Made by a program: the position numbers and the translations under genes. Shown one piece after another: positions 1 to 61,834 of a DNA stretch of 64,000 bases. The notes below the pieces were generated by a model, which saw nothing but the letters and a program-made list of their open reading frames with translations, made no database searches and was not told the origin of the DNA. The DNA is from Granulicella sp. (lineage in GTDB: Bacteria > Acidobacteriota > Terriglobia > Terriglobales > Acidobacteriaceae): the NCBI GenBank assembly GCA_027452215.1, contig DAIDGQ010000022.1, forward strand, positions 1 through 64,000, read 5' to 3'. Within the stretch, counting starts at the first letter, position 1, and each line of letters begins with the position of its first letter.

Positions 1-2391
1 GACCTCCTCGCCAGCGTCTTCCCCCACGCCTCCGCCTGCCCCGAGACCATGACCGGCGACATCGAAATCCCCGACCACCCCCTCGTCCGCGAGGTCATGA
101 AGGACACCCTCACCGAGGCCATGGACCTCGAAGGCCTCCTCAAAGTCCTGAGCGGAATAGCAGCGGGCACCATCCGCTGCCTCGCCGTCGACACGCCCGT
201 CCCCTCCGTCTTCGCGCACGAGCTCATCAACGCCATGCCCTACGCCTTCCTCGATCCCGAGGACGCCGCCGCCCGCCGCACCCGCGCCGTCAACACCCGC
301 GGCAACCTCCCCTCCAGCCTCCCCGAAGCCCCCGGCCGCCTCGATCCCGCCGCCATCGCCACCGTCCGCCAACAGCTTTGGCCCGACCTCCGCGACGAGC
401 ACGAACTCCACGACCTTCTCCTCCAACTCGTCGCCCTCCCCGCCGCGTTCCTCCAAGCTCCGGGTGCCCCATTCATGACGATGGCCTCATCATCGTCATG
501 GGTGGGATCGCAAAACCCCTCAACTGCCAACACCCAACACTGGCCCCTCTTCTTCACGCGCCTCGCAGAGCAGGGAAGAGCCCACCACCTCGACATCAAC
601 GGCCAACCCTTCTGGATCGCCACCGAGCGCCTCCCCGAAGCCGCCGCCCTCTGGCCCGCGATCGCGTTACCCATACCCTGTCATCCTGAGCGCAGCGCGC
701 AGCGCGCAGCCGAAGGGCCTGCCCCGCAGCTCACTCCCGCGACACAGCCCGCACCATCCGCCCCTCTCCGCGATACCGCGATCCTCACCCTCACCCAGGG
801 CTACCTCCAACTCCTCGGCCCCACCACGGCCGCTAACCTCGCCGCCCTCACCGACCAACCCGCTTCCAGGATCCACCAATCCCTCCTCACCATGGAGTTG
901 CAGGGCCTCGCCCTCCGCGGCATCTTCGAACACCCACCAACCACCGCCCCCCACGAAATCGAGTGGTGCGAGCGTCGCATCCTGCAACGCATCCACCGCC
1001 TCACCCTCGGCACGCTGCGCAAGCAGGTCGAGCCCGTCACTCCCGCCATCTTCATGCGCTGGCTCCTCGACTGGCACCATCTCGCACCCCAAACGCAAAG
1101 CACGGGCGAAGAAGCCGTCCTCGCCGCCATCGAGCAGCTCGAAGGCTTTGAGGCCCCTGCCATCGAGTGGGAGCGAACCCTCCTCCCCGCCCGCGTCGCC
1201 CACTACAACCCCCAGTGGCTGGACAACCTCTGCCTCGCCGGAGTCCTTGCCTGGGGTCGCATCTCCCCCCACCCCGCCTGGTCCGCCTCAACCCTGGGCG
1301 CCCCATCTTCGGCGACTGTTTCATCCTCGCCTAAGACGGGTTCATCAGGTCCAAGACGCGTCATCCCCACCACCGCCGCGCCTATCACCTTCTACCTCCG
1401 CGAATCCTCCGACTGGCTCCACCACGCCCTGGCGGCAAAATCCGTAGACGAAACCATCCTCACCCAATCCCTCTCTCCCGAAGCCCAGACCCTCCGCGCG
1501 CTCCTCTTGACGCAAGGCGCCGCCTTCACCGCCGACCTCCAGCGTCTCAGCGGCCTCACAAAACTCCAGACCACCACCGCCCTTTGGGAGCTCGCGACCG
1601 CCGGCCTCGCCTCCGCCGACGGCTTCGACCAGCTACGCGCCATGATGGATCCCCGCCGCAAATCCGCCACCATCTCGCCAATCCCCGCCACCAGCCTTCG
1701 CAAACGCGCCGCCGCCCGCACCACCGCCGGCCGCTGGTCTCTCCTCTCAGTCGCGCAGCAGTCAAACGCGCAGCCGCTCCCCCAGTACGCAGCCCCACCC
1801 CCGCCGTCCGCGCAGGACCCGGGTGCCCCATTCATGACTGCTCCATCCTCATGGGTGGGGTCGCAACAGGCCATCGCCCTCGCCAAACAAACCGACGCCG
1901 CACTCGACGCCCACGCCCGCATCCTCCTCTGCCGTTACGGCGTCCTCTTCCGCGAGCTCCTCACCCGCGAATCCAACGCCCCCAAATGGCGCGACCTCCT
2001 CCCCATCCTCCGCCGCCTCGAAGCCCGCGGCGAGATCCGCGGCGGCCGCTTCGTCTCCGGCCCGTTCGGCGAGCAGTACGCCCTCCCCGAAGCCGTCGAC
2101 TCCCTCCGCAAGGCCCGCACCCAGCACGCCTCGCGAGCCACCGAACCTCCCATTTCGGTAGCCGCAGCCGATCCCTTGAACCTCGCCGGAATCCTCGTCC
2201 CCGGCGACCGCGTCCCCTCCATCCCCGGCCGCGAAGTCATCTTCCTCAATGGCTCCGTCCTCCAGGAGAACGAGCCTGTCCCCGCGACGCCCAAACCAAG
2301 ACGCACCCGCAGCGTCGCCGACCTCCTCCGCGCCGAAGCTCTCCCTCCCCGCTCCGCGCAACCCACCGCATCTCCGGGCCTCTTCCGATGA
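1..2391 (+). CDS. lhr: Lhr-family ATP-dependent helicase, C-terminal 796 residues (5' end outside window)
   Basis: The frame is open from base 1, so the gene begins upstream and the helicase motor domains are not in the window. What remains is the long C-terminal part of Lhr-type DNA/RNA repair helicases. Near its start it has the DEAD/H-associated segment, including 'NAMPYAFLDPEDAAARR', a signature of this family. It ends with a winged-helix-rich region finishing in 'GGRFVSGPFGEQYALPEA', typical of Lhr C-termini. Lhr helicases unwind DNA and RNA:DNA hybrids and act in DNA repair. At least four short palindromic repeats lie inside the frame (listed separately) and encode low-complexity insertions without breaking it. 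The stop overlaps the start of the next gene (ATGA). The family call is firm; any effect of the insertions on activity is unknown. Confidence 0.88.
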   Translation, partial: DLLASVFPHASACPETMTGDIEIPDHPLVREVMKDTLTEAMDLEGLLKVLSGIAAGTIRCLAVDTPVPSVFAHELINAMPYAFLDPEDAAARRTRAVNTRGNLPSSLPEAPGRLDPAAIATVRQQLWPDLRDEHELHDLLLQLVALPAAFLQAPGAPFMTMASSSSWVGSQNPSTANTQHWPLFFTRLAEQGRAHHLDINGQPFWIATERLPEAAALWPAIALPIPCHPERSAQRAAEGPAPQLTPATQPAPSAPLRDTAILTLTQGYLQLLGPTTAANLAALTDQPASRIHQSLLTMELQGLALRGIFEHPPTTAPHEIEWCERRILQRIHRLTLGTLRKQVEPVTPAIFMRWLLDWHHLAPQTQSTGEEAVLAAIEQLEGFEAPAIEWERTLLPARVAHYNPQWLDNLCLAGVLAWGRISPHPAWSASTLGAPSSATVSSSPKTGSSGPRRVIPTTAAPITFYLRESSDWLHHALAAKSVDETILTQSLSPEAQTLRALLLTQGAAFTADLQRLSGLTKLQTTTALWELATAGLASADGFDQLRAMMDPRRKSATISPIPATSLRKRAAARTTAGRWSLLSVAQQSNAQPLPQYAAPPPPSAQDPGAPFMTAPSSWVGSQQAIALAKQTDAALDAHARILLCRYGVLFRELLTRESNAPKWRDLLPILRRLEARGEIRGGRFVSGPFGEQYALPEAVDSLRKARTQHASRATEPPISVAAADPLNLAGILVPGDRVPSIPGREVIFLNGSVLQENEPVPATPKPRRTRSVADLLRAEALPPRSAQPTASPGLFR
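460..516 (+). repeat. Palindromic repeat element, family A, copy 1 (in-frame inside lhr)
   Basis: The arms CCCATTCATGACGATG (468-483) and CATCGTCATGGGTGGG (491-506) pair along their whole length if two G-U wobbles are allowed, with a 7-base loop. The flanks 'gggtgccc' and 'tcgcaa' recur in the copy at 1820-1866. The element translates without a stop, so it lengthens the helicase rather than breaking it. Confidence 0.75.
677..721 (+). repeat. Dispersed repeat of the 'tcatcctgagcg' type (in-frame inside lhr)
   Basis: This segment begins 'cctgtcatcctgagcgcagc' and ends 'cgaagggcctgc', with a duplicated 'gcagcgcgca' in the middle. In the lhr frame it gives the peptide CHPERSAQRAAEGPA. That peptide resembles the 'CHPERSEGS' translations that recur in acidobacterial gene predictions, so I read it as a dispersed repeat that landed in frame. 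Recognition is from memory of the family, not a search. Confidence 0.6.
1299..1342 (+). repeat. Palindromic repeat element, family B (in-frame inside lhr)
   Basis: The arms CCCATCTTCGGCGA (1302-1315) and TCGCCTAAGACGGG (1327-1340) form a 14-bp stem with two mismatches around an 11-base loop. The leading 'gggcgcccca' resembles the 'gggtgcccca' that precedes family A copies, suggesting a related subfamily. It is read through in the helicase frame. Confidence 0.6.
1820..1866 (+). repeat. Palindromic repeat element, family A, copy 2 (in-frame inside lhr)
   Basis: The arms CCCCATTCATGA (1826-1837) and TCATGGGTGGGG (1849-1860) pair fully with the same two G-U wobble positions as copy 1. The flanks 'cgggtgcccc' and 'tcgcaa' match copy 1 while the loop differs. 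A conserved stem with a variable loop suggests that structure is conserved. Confidence 0.75.
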
Positions 2392-2564
2392 GCGAAGAGA
2401 CGAGTCTTCCCACGCCCAAACCCGGCGAAGCTCCCTTCGACGATGGCCCTCTCCGCCCCGAAGACTTCTACATGGAAGGCCCCTACCTCGTCTTCACCGC
2501 CGCCTATCATCTGCGCCGCGGCTATTGCTGCAACTCCGACTGCCGCCACTGCCCCTACAAATAA
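2388..2564 (+). CDS. DUF5522 small Cys-rich protein (58 aa)
   Basis: A 58-residue protein whose C-terminal half carries 'YHLRRGYCCNSDCRHCPYK', the hallmark of DUF5522. The four cysteines and one histidine suggest a small metal-binding module, but no reaction is known for the family. The ATG overlaps the TGA of the Lhr helicase gene (ATGA), so the two are probably translated from one mRNA by coupling. It is followed by a minus-strand gene, so it ends this plus-strand unit. Confidence 0.8.
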   Translation: MSEETSLPTPKPGEAPFDDGPLRPEDFYMEGPYLVFTAAYHLRRGYCCNSDCRHCPYK

Positions 2565-2586
2565 ACAGCAAGCACCAGCATCAACC

Positions 2587-3633
2587 TCAAGGCTGCGAGT
2601 AGTACCCCGCGCGCGTTCGAGCCTCGACGTCTCTCTGCGCCACCTTCACTTCAATTCGGTGATACGTGTTCGGCTTCTCGTCAGGCGGCGCGTTCAGCAC
2701 AATCCGGTAGTACCGGTTCGCGTCATCCACACACTGCTTCATCATGCCAATCAAATCGTTCGAGCTCAGCACCAGCCCACCGCTCTGTGCAGCCAGCACC
2801 TGTAGCGCCAGGTTGCCCCACTCGGCATCCCCCGGCCCTTTCAGTCCATCCAGAAAACTCTCGTAGAAAAACTCCCGGTTCATATTCTCCGTCGCTCCCC
2901 AGCTATTCACGCTGTACAGCGTAATATCCGCCTTGCGCAGCTCTCTCGAAAACGTAATCGCATTTCGATAAACATCTTGCTCCTGGCTCCCGTCAAGATC
3001 CACCTCCGGCCCAGACAGCAGCGGCCAGCCCGGCGATACCCATAGCACGAGCTTGCGTCCCGGCCTTTTCTCCTCCGCCTGCGTCAAACTCCGCAGTCCA
3101 TTCAACGACACGGTCATCCGGTCAGCCGCCCCCCAGAATCCCTGGCTTCGCGTGATAACCCGCAGCCCGATATTTGTATGCTCCAGCGTGTTCGCCAAAG
3201 CATTTCCATCCTTGGTTGCCCCGTTTTTCAGCTCGAAGCCCTTGTCAGTCAACACCGCGAACGTCGTGGGATACGGCAGCGCGCCACCATTGCTGCGCAG
3301 ATACTTCGCAACCTGGTCACGCTGATATCCCAGATACGTATACGGTGTATTCACCGAATCGAGGACGATCAGCACTTCAACCTTGGCATCTTTACCCTTG
3401 ACCGCGGCAAACGATGCAATCGGGTGCGGCTTCTTGTTATCCAGCACCGTAAAATCCTGCTCGGTCAGGGCTCCAACCGGGGCCCCCTTGGACGTTGTTA
3501 CCGCCACATCCAGCTGAATCTTCCCCGACGCCCCGCTCTGCGCCGGCATCTGTTGAGCACAAGCGCTCCCCGCAGCAATGATCAAAAGGCTGGCAAAACT
3601 CACCGCGACAGCGCTATACCACTTCATGGACAT
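2587..3633 (-). CDS. Secreted VWFA-related domain protein (348 aa)
   Basis: An N-terminal signal peptide (MSMKWYSAVAV... ending near 'AGSACAQQ') is followed by a domain of the acidobacterial VWFA-related type. The pre-strand region reads 'GALTEQDFTVLDNKKPHPI', the usual 'gL..dDF.v.dd.kpq' pattern. The metal-site segment 'LIVLDSVNTPY' keeps the first Asp but not a full DxSxS, so metal binding may be altered. I start it at the ATG at 3633 because the signal peptide begins there; an upstream ATG at 3678 would add a charged 15-residue leader. Such proteins are exported and of unknown function. It lies downstream of, and in the same direction as, a larger VWFA protein. Confidence 0.8.
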   Translation of the reverse strand: MSMKWYSAVAVSFASLLIIAAGSACAQQMPAQSGASGKIQLDVAVTTSKGAPVGALTEQDFTVLDNKKPHPIASFAAVKGKDAKVEVLIVLDSVNTPYTYLGYQRDQVAKYLRSNGGALPYPTTFAVLTDKGFELKNGATKDGNALANTLEHTNIGLRVITRSQGFWGAADRMTVSLNGLRSLTQAEEKRPGRKLVLWVSPGWPLLSGPEVDLDGSQEQDVYRNAITFSRELRKADITLYSVNSWGATENMNREFFYESFLDGLKGPGDAEWGNLALQVLAAQSGGLVLSSNDLIGMMKQCVDDANRYYRIVLNAPPDEKPNTYHRIEVKVAQRDVEARTRAGYYSQP

Positions 3634-3844
3634 CCGATAATCTCCCGCCCTCTGGACATAATCCCGTCGTCTCTTCAAGCGGCGATTGACGCGAAGCTAT
3701 TGACCAATTCAGGGCCTACACCTACTAAGACGCGGACTTGGCTCCCAACGAGTCACATCCCTGTGACATGTTGTTCATTTATGCGAGAAAGAAGTCGTTG
3801 CGATGGCCGCAATACCTTATCTGCAGCGAGTTCCACTCGTGCGA

Positions 3845-6025
3845 TCAACGCGCCCCACCCTCCGCGGCCGCCGCCGCCCTCGTCGCCGCAGCCGCCGTCA
3901 CCTTCAACGCCATCCTTGGAAACATAAAACTTCCACCCGCATCGTCAATCACATTCACCTGGCAGATATACGTCCCCGGCTTCAACTGCGTCAGCGGCAC
4001 ATCAAACTGAAACGCCACCCCATTATGTTGCGGATCATTGATCTCATCCGCCGTCACCAGGGGAGTCTCATATACCTTCGTCCCATTGCTCAGAAATTCA
4101 ATACTCGTCAGCACCTTTACCGGCCCACCCACTCGCCGCGCCAGTCCCGGAGCCGCCGCGGGCTCCGCCCCACCCTTCTCCTTCGCCGGCTCATACACCT
4201 CATACAAGAAATACAAATGCTGGTCCTGCCGAAACACATGGGCAACATTCGGCACCCACTCCAGCCCATCCCTCACCAACGGACTCGTCGAATGTTTATT
4301 CGCGCCTGCCACGCGCTGGCTGGCCAGCACCACCGAGCTCAACTTCAGCGGAGCCTTCTTCAAATCAGGCACCTGGATGTCCGTCTCAAAACTTCCCATG
4401 TTGCCCGTCTGATTCTCCCGAACAACAAACCTCAGGTGATACCGTCCCGGCGCCAACGTAAACCCAGTCGAGTACTGAATCTTCTTCCGCTTCACCTCCT
4501 GCGACGCATCCACTGCCAGCTTCACCGTCTCACGCACATTCCCCACCACGATGCCCTGTGCATTCTTCACCTGCCCCATAATGTCGAGCGTCGCCTTATC
4601 CCGATCCCCGCCCGCCACAAACGGAATCTGCGACCCCGGAACAATCAAACTCACCGGAATAAAATACGCCGTCTCGCTCTCCCTAAAGTACAGCGCCTGC
4701 AGATACACCGCCACATCCGTCGCCGGCGAATCACTCCGCATCTGCTCCGTCAGCGCCAGCTCCCGGTCCTCCGTCTTCTGATGAACGAAGTCCGCCGGAG
4801 CATAATAGCCAGGCCTGTATTCGATCCTCACATCATTGCGATTCACCTTGATCGTCAAGTGCCGAAACGATCCATCGCGCTTTTGATTCGTCGATCGAAA
4901 TCCAAGAATGTAATACGCCTCCGTGTCATGCTGCACCTGCTGAAACGCCGGAGCAAAATCATTCGAGTCGAAAAACGCCTTGCCCCCCGTATCCGTGCTC
5001 AACGTGCTCAGCGTCTCCTGCGATTCAAAGTTCGCGCTGAACTGCGCCGTCGTCGCCGCTGCGCTATAAGCCGAATTCCCGCGCAAGCTCCCCTTGCTCG
5101 CATCTCCCACCGGAGGCAGCGCCTGCAGCCCGCGCGCGTCCACGCTATAGATCGCAAGATTTGCCTTCGCCGCTTCATTCGTCGCGGCGCGCAAACTAGC
5201 CTGGTTCTCAATCCCGTTCCTCGTAATGCCGCCCGAAAAATACAGCATCGACTTGCGTTGATCCACTCTCTCCAGGCTCTTCGATATCGCACGAATCGCC
5301 AGCAGCTCACGATCCGTATTCAAGCTGTTGTACTCCGTATCATCCGCCGCAAACGCCGCCGTATCATCGCTCGTTCCATCGGTCGAGCCCGTCGTCCCAT
5401 TCGCGAAGCCTGTCTCATCCGTGCCGTTATACTTCGCCAGCCCGCGCAGCAGAGCACCCTTGTCCGAAGTAAAATCCTGGTCCATCGACAGCCCCGTCGA
5501 CATGCTCACCAGCGCCACCAGATCCGCCGGCTGCATCTGTTTGTTCACATACTCATCTGCTGCATCTACTGCACGATCGATATCCTCATCCTGCATCGAA
5601 CTCAGATCAAAAAAGATCACAATCAGTCGATGGTCTTTCAACTGAGCCGAGTTCGCCCCAAAATTCCCATTCAGCAAATCCGCCACCGAAGCTTTGCCCC
5701 CGGCCGTTGTCTTCTCCGCCAGCGCCGCGGCCTCATCCACATTCTGATAATCAAAACTGATCACGCGCTGCGGCTTTCTGTCCTCGGTGATCGTAAAGTC
5801 GCTCTCCTTCAAACCCTTCACCACCGCGCCGGTCTTCTTATCTCGCACAATCACGTTCGTCAGCACGATATTTGCATTCACACTCAGCCTGAACGTCCCA
5901 TCCCCCGTCTGCTGTGCCTGCGGCTGCAGCCTCTCACTCTGAGGAGTCGCCATCTGAGCCGCAGCCGCCATCGGCCCGCCCACTCCGAACACTCCGGCCA
6001 TCACCGCCGCTACAACTCGCCGCAT
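3845..6025 (-). CDS. Secreted VWFA-related domain protein (726 aa)
   Basis: A signal peptide (MRRVVAAVMAGVFGVGGPMAAAAQ) precedes the VWFA-related domain. That domain opens with 'VLTNVIVRDKKTGAVV' and 'GLKESDFTITEDRKPQRVIS' and contains the MIDAS-like 'IVIFFDLSSMQDEDI'. After the VWA fold (about residues 60-360) comes a beta-rich C-terminal half of unknown type. An Ala-rich tail ends the protein. It starts 30 bases after the end of the Oar-like gene on the same strand, so the two are likely co-transcribed. In Acidobacteria these proteins are numerous and presumed periplasmic or surface-located; the ligand is unknown. Confidence 0.85.
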   Translation of the reverse strand: MRRVVAAVMAGVFGVGGPMAAAAQMATPQSERLQPQAQQTGDGTFRLSVNANIVLTNVIVRDKKTGAVVKGLKESDFTITEDRKPQRVISFDYQNVDEAAALAEKTTAGGKASVADLLNGNFGANSAQLKDHRLIVIFFDLSSMQDEDIDRAVDAADEYVNKQMQPADLVALVSMSTGLSMDQDFTSDKGALLRGLAKYNGTDETGFANGTTGSTDGTSDDTAAFAADDTEYNSLNTDRELLAIRAISKSLERVDQRKSMLYFSGGITRNGIENQASLRAATNEAAKANLAIYSVDARGLQALPPVGDASKGSLRGNSAYSAAATTAQFSANFESQETLSTLSTDTGGKAFFDSNDFAPAFQQVQHDTEAYYILGFRSTNQKRDGSFRHLTIKVNRNDVRIEYRPGYYAPADFVHQKTEDRELALTEQMRSDSPATDVAVYLQALYFRESETAYFIPVSLIVPGSQIPFVAGGDRDKATLDIMGQVKNAQGIVVGNVRETVKLAVDASQEVKRKKIQYSTGFTLAPGRYHLRFVVRENQTGNMGSFETDIQVPDLKKAPLKLSSVVLASQRVAGANKHSTSPLVRDGLEWVPNVAHVFRQDQHLYFLYEVYEPAKEKGGAEPAAAPGLARRVGGPVKVLTSIEFLSNGTKVYETPLVTADEINDPQHNGVAFQFDVPLTQLKPGTYICQVNVIDDAGGSFMFPRMALKVTAAAATRAAAAAEGGAR

Positions 6026-59929: not shown

Positions 59930-59971
59930 GCAGAGCGATTTCGTGTTATCCACAGGTCATGTACTGTGTCA

Positions 59972-59989
59972 TGTCGTAATATTACGACA
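59972..59989. promoter_or_regulatory. Perfect 18-bp palindrome, probable operator
   Basis: TGTCGTAATATTACGACA is its own reverse complement and ends 12 bases before the start of the DUF5343 gene. Position and symmetry fit a dimeric repressor site overlapping the promoter or leader, as in autoregulated toxin-antitoxin and defence operons. The cognate regulator is not known; the DUF5343 protein itself is one candidate. Confidence 0.65.
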
Positions 59990-60001
59990 GAGGCTTGATT
60001 C

Positions 60002-60760
60002 ATGGAATCCAGAGAATCAAAATCGATCGCTGTTTATCTGTCCTTCGCTACCCTGCGATCCGCCGTAGGGCTCTTACGGAACCATGGTCTCCCAAAGAAT
60101 ATTGACAGGACGGCTTGGGGGTCGCGCTCAGGAGCAGAGCAAACGCAACTCCTGAGTGCCTTCAAATTCCTTGGTTTCATCGATGAAGCTCAAAATACCC
60201 AGCAAGTGCTCGTCGACCTAGTGGCGCTCGAGCCCGATAGCGAGGCTGAGAGAGAGCTTTTTAATAAGATCCTTCGCGTGAGTTATGCGAGCGTTTTCGA
60301 ACTGGACTTGAAGACTGCGACTCCCGGGCAACTTAATGAAGCCATAGGCAGATATGGCGTATCGGGCACAACACGGGATCGAGCTGTTCGTTTCTTCATC
60401 AAGGCGGCTGAGTTTTGCAAAATCCCTCTTTCATCGCGGTTCGCAAGTGGATCCCCCAATGTATCGGGCGCCAGCGGGACCGAGCGTGTTGCAACCATTA
60501 CACGAGCCCGCCGTCGTCGTCGCGTCATTGCGGATATCCCGGAACGGCAGTCGAGCCCTATGTCAGAGAATTCTGGCGGTTCTGCTATGAAAACGATTCA
60601 GCTCCAGTCAGTTGGAGGATCGCTGACAATTAGTGGAACGTTTAATCCGTTCGGCTTGGTGGGCAAAGAGCGCGAACTGGTCTATTCAATCATCGACAAA
60701 ATGAATGAATACGAAATGAGCAAAGAAGTGCCTAGAGCGAAGGCGGGTCATGGAGAATGA
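60002..60760 (+). CDS. DUF5343 protein (252 aa)
   Basis: The first ~150 residues match DUF5343: 'VYLSFATLRSAVGLLRNHGL', 'DRTAWGSRSGAEQTQLLSAF' and later 'SGTTRDRAVRFFIKAAEF'. This looks like an all-helical, winged-helix-like module. An Arg-rich linker and a small C-terminal domain ('VGGSLTISGTFNPFGLVGKE') follow. Function is unknown; family members are often found among mobile or defence genes. The base composition is visibly more A+T-rich than in glmS. Its TGA overlaps the next ATG (ATGA), so both are one translational unit behind the palindrome at 59972. Confidence 0.75.
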   Translation: MESRESKSIAVYLSFATLRSAVGLLRNHGLPKNIDRTAWGSRSGAEQTQLLSAFKFLGFIDEAQNTQQVLVDLVALEPDSEAERELFNKILRVSYASVFELDLKTATPGQLNEAIGRYGVSGTTRDRAVRFFIKAAEFCKIPLSSRFASGSPNVSGASGTERVATITRARRRRRVIADIPERQSSPMSENSGGSAMKTIQLQSVGGSLTISGTFNPFGLVGKERELVYSIIDKMNEYEMSKEVPRAKAGHGE

Positions 60761-61347
60761 CTAAAGTAGTTCCAATCCGCAGACGGGCGGCGCGCATAGG
60801 CGCCCCACGCCCAGACTATGTACAGGAAGCGAGTATTGCTGATTTATTTCGGAAATACGAACAGGAATTGGTAGGTACGTTCGCGGAGGATCCACTTGGT
60901 ACGCGCGTTTGGTTTCGGGACTATAACTTCCCGAAGCTCATTCAACTATCATTCCGCGGAACGAAGGCAAAAGCGTCTATCGCGATCAATCATCTGAGAA
61001 GGAATGGCTCCGAGTCTGACTATGCATTCGACGAGTATCGGGCTAAGACGCTCTTTTGGATACCCGATGTCATCAAAAATGCCGATTCAATTTACGTAAA
61101 CGGGCATAAACGAATCGCCGGAGATCAGGTCTATGTGAAGCGATATGCAAAAGCGGGAGCCACATTGAAGGTTGTGTTTACCCAGATCGACGACGAGATG
61201 AATCAGCGCATTGTCACCACGTCATTCCAAACTGATGACGAAGGACTTAGACGCTTTGTGAACTCGAAACCGATGTGGTCCGCAAAAGCGGAAATCTCGA
61301 GCGAAACCATAGTGGTCGGAATCGCCGCTGCAAAGGATGAGACTTAA
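60757..61347 (+). CDS. Unknown protein, possible BECR-fold nuclease (196 aa)
   Basis: I cannot name a firm family. The C-terminal half has the order 'AKTLFWIPDVIKNADSIYVN', 'DQVYVKRYAKAG', 'LKVVFTQIDDE', 'QRIVTTSFQTDDE'. This is like phage-associated Barnase/EndoU/ColicinE5/RelE-type (PBECR) nucleases, where a 'W-I...L.nPd.IY' helix is followed by three strands ending in a TSF-like motif. The N-terminus is basic (MTKVVPIRRRAARIG). It is coupled by a 4-base overlap to the DUF5343 gene, which fits a toxin with its partner. The nuclease idea is inference from pattern only. Confidence 0.5.
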   Translation: MTKVVPIRRRAARIGAPRPDYVQEASIADLFRKYEQELVGTFAEDPLGTRVWFRDYNFPKLIQLSFRGTKAKASIAINHLRRNGSESDYAFDEYRAKTLFWIPDVIKNADSIYVNGHKRIAGDQVYVKRYAKAGATLKVVFTQIDDEMNQRIVTTSFQTDDEGLRRFVNSKPMWSAKAEISSETIVVGIAAAKDET

Positions 61348-61834
61348 ACGAAGAAAACCGCTTGCGCGGCTTTCTCCTGCACATTGCCCCGTGTCCAGGG
61401 ATGACGCTCAGAATTGCACTGAGCAAGTAGTAATATGATGCGGTATCCGCATTAAAGATGCAAGCATCAAATACGGAGCGGAACCGAGTATTAGCCTGTC
61501 GATCGACTCAAACCTGTTATCGTCAGCGGCGGGTGGGCCACCCAGCGTTCTGAGTAGCAGATTTATATGCGCTTTTGAGGATGGGTGGGGTTGGGGGCAT
61601 TGCAGCTACTAATGGTGACATGCTGAGCCGCCCGAAAAGTGATTAAGCTGAGGGACGCCGCCACTTTTTTCCTTCTGTTGCTTTCGCTTTCTCTCTTACG
61701 TGTGTTACGCGCTCCTGCTCCGGAAAATTTACACCTAGGCCTCAGCTGAGGAGGGTTAGTGAGCACGTTGGTGGGGCGTGGGGTGTAGGGGGCGGGTGGC
61801 TGGTTGGGGGCGCACCCGCCTGTGGTTGTGGGGA
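61348..61834. other. Spacer between convergent genes, no gene seen
   Basis: These 487 bases hold the hairpin at 61353, small palindromes (ATGCGG-TAT-CCGCAT at 61438-61452; GGGTGG-G-CCACCC at 61531-61543) and no credible reading frame. The left part keeps the A+T-richer composition of the DUF5343 islet, and the right part becomes G-rich. I could not find a tRNA or integrase remnant to explain how the islet arrived. Confidence 0.55.
61353..61374 (+). terminator. Weak hairpin after the DUF5343 pair
   Basis: GAAAACCGC (61353-61361) pairs with GCGGCTTTC (61366-61374) with one mismatch around TTGC, six bases past the stop. The short T-run in the 3' arm makes it only a modest terminator candidate. 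Confidence 0.4.

Follow-up and report, generated by a model that had tools for sequence, protein, structure and literature searches.

Type II toxin-antitoxin operons are characterized by a regulator gene in first position, a gene overlap, a palindrome and a protein of an RNase-type fold family. Two candidate defence families listed in PADLOC, PDC-M34 and PDC-M04, involve proteins closer to those considered here, and the labels M04A and M04B suggest that PDC-M04 pairs a DUF3800-like with a PBECR-like protein. Two other PADLOC candidates showed no defence activity, according to the accessible part of the source (PMC12409345). For PBECR domains, the accessible sections of PMC5512222 describe a first-helix His together with a C-terminal Thr or Ser in most families, with Arg in place of the His in one family, and propose RNA binding for an inactive domain. 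DUF3800 proteins have a predicted RNase H-type fold and are linked to putative non-coding RNAs (accessible portion of PMC10910872). A literature search, with most subscription papers outside it, returned no paper on DUF5343, PF17278, PDC-M04 or PDC-M34.

The locus described here lies in a 64,000-nucleotide stretch of Granulicella sp. DNA (the window). It consists of a perfect 18-bp palindrome (TGTCGTAATATTACGACA, 59972..59989), which is a candidate operator; gene A (60002..60760, plus strand, 252 aa), whose ATG at 60002 follows the palindrome after 12 bases and which is DUF5343-type by its relatives; and gene B (60757..61347, plus strand, 196 aa), which is PBECR-like and PDC-M04B-like and shares an ATGA with gene A at 60757-60760. 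This is the arrangement given in the original prediction, where it was read as a candidate undescribed two-gene system. All of its parts are present, and the reading as a two-gene operon is supported. The interpretation as a whole is partly supported, and the word “undescribed” is only partly right, because PADLOC already includes both families among its candidates, each with its own label.

The layout resembles that of a type II toxin-antitoxin system, with a regulator-type gene first, an overlapping operon, an upstream palindrome and a member of an RNase-type fold family. It differs from such systems in the large size of A and in the frequency with which relatives of A stand alone. The comparison with PDC-M04 is likewise mixed: B matches five M04B models and a DUF3800 partner of DUF5343 at another locus (L073) matches M04A, whereas the partner of B here is DUF5343-type, and the relatives of B at loci G121 and L017 have no M04B match at E up to 1. 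Measured against the PBECR domains in the accessible part of PMC5512222, B shows a sequence relation and the retained C-terminal Ser, but has Lys for His and, instead of forming part of a phage polyvalent protein, stands alone on the chromosome with a partner in its operon.

Sequence context and distribution of the islet

The palindrome is the only match to itself in the window at up to 3 mismatches, against none in 100 shuffles of the window. The window's own assembly (2.5 Mb, 59% complete) holds one exact copy and one additional site at 3 mismatches. When the 100 bases preceding A were resampled 400 times to first order, no resampling reached its perfect 9-bp arm. At L020, a locus recorded as Granulicella sp. 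UBA5172, two bases of the palindrome are changed without compensation and CGTA....TACG remains. Just upstream of the palindrome lies a second, weaker inverted repeat, CACAG...CTGTG (59951-59968), which is retained in L020 and is there one pair longer.

The islet had been described as A+T-rich and horizontally acquired. In 500-base windows its GC content is 0.49-0.53 versus 0.58-0.66 around it, with mixed values in the edge windows. In the phylum, 14 of 396 genomes carry a relative of A and 2 a relative of B, with the own genome counted in both cases. Four of the 28 genomes of the genus Granulicella have an A relative, and this particular A occurs only in the own genome and in G407, which is probably the same assembly as L020 because the coordinates coincide. 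A scan of genome contigs returned one locus, L020, with the end of glmS upstream. In 30 loci around glmS-type hits of the genus, with 1.5-kb flanks (some cut short or more distant paralogues; the L020 glmS is cut by the contig end), A and B were present only in the own locus. Given this patchy occurrence, the islet looks like a rare acquisition, and its presence at one site in 2 of the 28 genus genomes, together with the low GC content, supports the claim of horizontal transfer. Of 61 relatives searched for a 256-base stretch 3′ of B, three gave a match (the own genome, G407 and G440), the 29-base match in G440 being taken as chance.

Wider searches returned few relatives. There were no B-type relatives in viral contigs, plasmids or phages, and no relatives of A or of the L073 DUF3800 protein in plasmids. 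Among 297 genomes, 3 matched PF18812 (E up to 0.01), the own genome included, with one match above the cut-off. PF18810 was matched in 5 of 297, and no DUF5343-like neighbour was seen by eye in the four 3-kb loci other than G023. The profile PDLC04363 matched none of the 396 genomes, including the own genome, and is therefore uninformative. No terminal inverted repeats of the kind that would mark a transposon passenger are apparent around the islet in the window or L020. Transposase-like genes, named by eye, lie near B or DUF5343 genes at L004, L007 and L018.

Between the window and L020, identity is 84-85% for B and 91% for A across the 188 codons compared. The dN/dS ratios are low (0.13 for A and 0.03 for B), which indicates that both genes are kept as proteins. 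At silent sites (window 60002-61344), dS is 2.8 for B, near saturation, versus 0.35 for A. Gene A and its upstream region are thus far less diverged at silent sites than B, as if A had been exchanged between lineages or B replaced.

The two proteins and their partners elsewhere

The original prediction assigned B a BECR-nuclease-like pattern. In Pfam, B matches PBECR3 (PF18812) with an E value of 6.1e-5 and 23.3 bits, under the family's curated cut-off of 30 bits. It also matches five PDC-M04B models in PADLOC (8e-5 to 5.5e-3; the tool states no curated cut-off), as a B-type member of that pair would by profile. The B relative at G121 (52% identical) has no Pfam or PADLOC match at E up to 1. 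The relative at L017 exceeds the PBECR2 cut-off (2.9e-9), and a three-sequence B profile aligns to this PBECR2-type protein over 152 columns (E 5.6e-5, probability 66%). In these alignments Ser156 of B is retained, and Lys60, identical in the window, L020 and G121, sits at the His column of L017 and L034. The predicted pattern finds support in the PBECR3 match and the L017 profile alignment, but the match is below the cut-off and Lys60 replaces the catalytic His. A Lys can fill this role in RNases of the BECR fold, RelE and colicin E5 among them. B could be an RNase whose active site differs, or a protein that binds RNA. The structure model of B has a pLDDT of 41, too low to judge a BECR fold. 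The best E values in sequence searches of the PDB were 0.42 and 0.52, and NCBIfam and PHROGs gave nothing for A and B and nothing near cut-off for nine relatives and neighbours.

Gene A has no match to DUF5343 (PF17278) in Pfam at E up to 10. It also has no PADLOC match at E up to 10, so by profile it does not qualify as the A-type partner of PDC-M04. Its assignment comes from an alignment, A1, of window A with 12 relatives, leaving out L019 (spurious) and L010 (near-identical to L009). Ten of the 13 members match PF17278 (best 2e-9), and 10 of the 13 match PDC-M34A, unlike window A itself. The earlier designation as a DUF5343 gene thus holds through the relatives and not through a match of its own. 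The structure model of A places helices within residues 15-138 with a mean pLDDT of 53, too weak for use, so that binding of A to the palindrome DNA is something we infer. A dyad motif, CGTAWT(0-6)AWTACG, which was chosen after three of the sites had been seen, was scored in 16 regions upstream of A-type genes. It reaches 12/12 in the window, L017 and L039 and 11/12 in L020 and L018 (p ~0.11 for L018), and is no better than chance in the other 11 regions (scores 8-10, p at least 0.27). The best inverted repeat upstream of the A gene of L073 has arms of only 5. GTCSGAC-like boxes recur upstream of the DUF5343 genes at L008, L009, L010, L012, L013, L014, L015, L018 and L039, often paired ~29-30 bases apart, and in several cases TTGATATA-like sequence then follows.

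A same-strand pair of DUF5343 and B is found in the window and at L020. At L017, a DUF5343 gene is followed by the PBECR2-type gene after 116 bases. At L073, a DUF5343 gene overlaps a DUF3800 gene by ATGA, as in the window, and this DUF3800 protein matches PDC-M04A (6.3e-4), which connects the two PDC-M04 protein types and DUF5343 in pairs. At G121 (= L004/L026, another genus), B starts 4 bases after a gene with weak winged-helix matches. L039 has a 153-codon open stretch (2273-2734) 3′ of its DUF5343 gene, with no Pfam or NCBIfam match near cut-off and no PADLOC match, which is possibly a further effector type. A frame lies 144-259 bases downstream at L007, L011 and L014, in no case with a Pfam match above cut-off, and at L016/L029 the contig ends. 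No partner was recognized by eye at eight DUF5343 relatives (L006, L008, L009, L010, L012, L013, L015 and L018), and these would count against a simple antitoxin role for A. The survey of DUF5343 neighbours proposed with the original prediction thus found DUF5343 beside nuclease-type genes at L017 and L073, and eight relatives with no recognized partner. In line with the defence link drawn there, A relatives, B and the L073 DUF3800 protein match candidate PADLOC defence families. The pair exists as described and has ties to candidate conflict genes, and the relatives suggest an exchangeable module. The idea of a partner-specific C-terminal tail of A was dropped: judged by eye, the type of tail did not follow the type of partner, and a single tail match in a protein without a DUF5343 match was weak (E 0.0024).

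A conserved element 3′ of gene B

The conserved element 3′ of B is absent from the original prediction; it is new, and more novel than the pair itself. After B, the window and L020 are 82-89% identical in 45-base windows to ~61490. This covers a 46-base core (61384..61429, strand uncertain), which is a candidate RNA, and a further conserved stretch (61430..61490, 0.82-0.89 in 45-base windows); identity falls after ~61491, to 34-49%. Between the window and G121 the core is identical at 40 of 46 positions, although agreement at the third codon positions of B is 31.7%. The best value in 60 shuffles was 25, a comparison made after the fact because the core was picked from the three-way alignment. 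Within codon-aligned B, the best 46-base stretch reaches 36/46.

A covariance model of the three loci finds one copy in the own assembly (59% complete). Across 28 sources, E is below 0.8 only at the window, L020 and G121 loci (L004 = L026), with no copy at L017/L027, L039 or L073. None of the element's 9 pairs varies, so there is no covariation, and all seven variable core columns are unpaired in the model used. For a folded stretch of 149 bases, z is -2.0 in the window and -5.2 in L020. A terminator-like hairpin between B and the core (61350..61377), not listed by a consensus scan, has 12/12 pairs on the minus strand in the window and L020 and 10/12 on the plus strand of the window. The minus-strand pairing favours a minus-strand RNA; in conflict with this, L020 has a distal hairpin with better pairing on the plus strand. 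A minus-strand frame runs open across the core in all three loci, and five of the seven variable core columns fall on its third positions. By eye, none of the starts ATG, GTG and TTG precedes the core in the window's version of this frame (35 codons).

The element resembles the RNAs of DUF3800 genes (RF02968 and others) in its conservation, its non-coding nature and its position immediately 3′ of a nuclease-type gene, and the L073 example is coupled to DUF5343. There, a known DUF3800-IX RNA (61.4 bits) lies on the opposite strand and abuts the stop codon of the DUF3800 gene, which is the geometry that a minus-strand RNA 3′ of B would have. Unlike those RNAs, the window element has a different sequence, with none of their families among its Rfam matches up to E 10 and no Rfam match near a gathering score. 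The best window match, isrK (E 0.68), was rejected as chance level, as was a match of the L020 element to the OrzO-P antitoxin RNA (E 0.07, 23.5 bits versus 60, hairpin only). Rfam searches of 20 further loci returned only one tRNA, and the element was found in no viral contigs, plasmids (best E 9) or phages. We infer that the element acts as an RNA.

Candidate functions of the locus

The explanation we tentatively prefer, as falling a little short of probable, is that the islet is an acquired conflict module, either toxin-antitoxin or anti-phage, autoregulated by A. Following horizontal acquisition of the islet, A would bind the palindrome and repress its own operon, and the ATGA overlap would allow A and B to be translated together. 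B, with a BECR fold and independent of metal, would act as an RNase-like effector that A restrains until stress or phage infection releases it. At its 3′ end, B would be followed by a short structured RNA that is part of the module and binds B or tunes its expression. The layout, the palindrome, the relation of B to PBECR, the coupling of DUF5343 to nuclease-type genes elsewhere and the nucleotide conservation of the element argue for this explanation, as do the patchy presence and low GC, the full dyads at the window, L017 and L039, the low dN/dS of both genes, the different gene in front of B at G121 and the DUF3800-IX RNA of L073. Counted against it are the sub-cut-off PBECR3 match, the unmatched B of G121, Lys60, the partnerless DUF5343 genes, the dyad scores at chance in 11 of 16 regions, the short inverted-repeat arms upstream of A at L073, the degraded palindrome of L020, the lack of covariation and the weak structure models. 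A more specific proposal, which is possible but doubtful, is a module of three parts: a DNA-binding regulator that can be exchanged, whether DUF5343 or some other winged-helix protein; a protein of the BECR fold whose active site is Lys-based or lost; and a dedicated, convergently encoded small structured RNA at the 3′ end of the latter. The arrangement would parallel that of DUF3800 proteins and their RNAs, and the RNA would serve the nuclease-like protein as ligand, inhibitor or guide.

An unlikely alternative is an anti-phage system with no antitoxin, where A would be a sensor or regulator common to many loci that recruits or switches on exchangeable effectors such as B or DUF3800. The varied or unrecognized neighbours of A-type genes and the listing of both families in PADLOC are consistent with such a system; the inactivity of the two other PADLOC candidates in the accessible part of the published test (PMC12409345) speaks against it. 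It is quite improbable that B is instead a catalytically inactive, RNA-binding PBECR relative forming, with A, a small regulator of its own transcript and the 3′ element. Replacement of the L017/L034 His by Lys60 in all three loci would fit an inactive protein, as would the RNA binding proposed for an inactive PBECR domain (PMC5512222), but Ser156 is retained, and one PBECR family has Arg for His (PMC5512222). The use of Lys by RelE and colicin E5 also tells against inactivity.

We give a similarly low probability to the possibility that the 3′ element is a short minus-strand coding region or a DNA site, for example the end of a mobile element with A and B as passengers. The third-position bias in the open minus-strand frame points in this direction, as do the transposase-like genes near L004, L007 and L018; on the other side are the missing start codon, the plasmid search, the lack of apparent terminal inverted repeats and the unpaired state of all 7 variable columns in the model used. 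Far less credible is a chance association of an unrelated regulator gene with an unrelated gene through a fortuitous overlap. Within what was searched, the exact pair occurs in two species only, which would be compatible with chance, but both genes have low dN/dS and DUF5343 has a PBECR2-type neighbour at L017 and overlaps DUF3800 at L073.

Shared gene order links three poorly understood families: DUF5343, PBECR-like proteins, and DUF3800 with its RNAs. Were a different nuclease fold to have a parallel element next to it, DUF3800 and its RNAs would look like one case of a general design. The locus is small and clonable, and the role of the adjacent conserved element is directly testable. Two further observations concern the surroundings of DUF5343 relatives. 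At L009, two small frames that look HicB/HicA toxin-antitoxin-like by eye lie ~0.4-0.9 kb downstream of the DUF5343 gene. At L029, genes that by eye are methylase-like and helicase-like (2369-6003) lie near the DUF5343 relative and form a possible defence locus.
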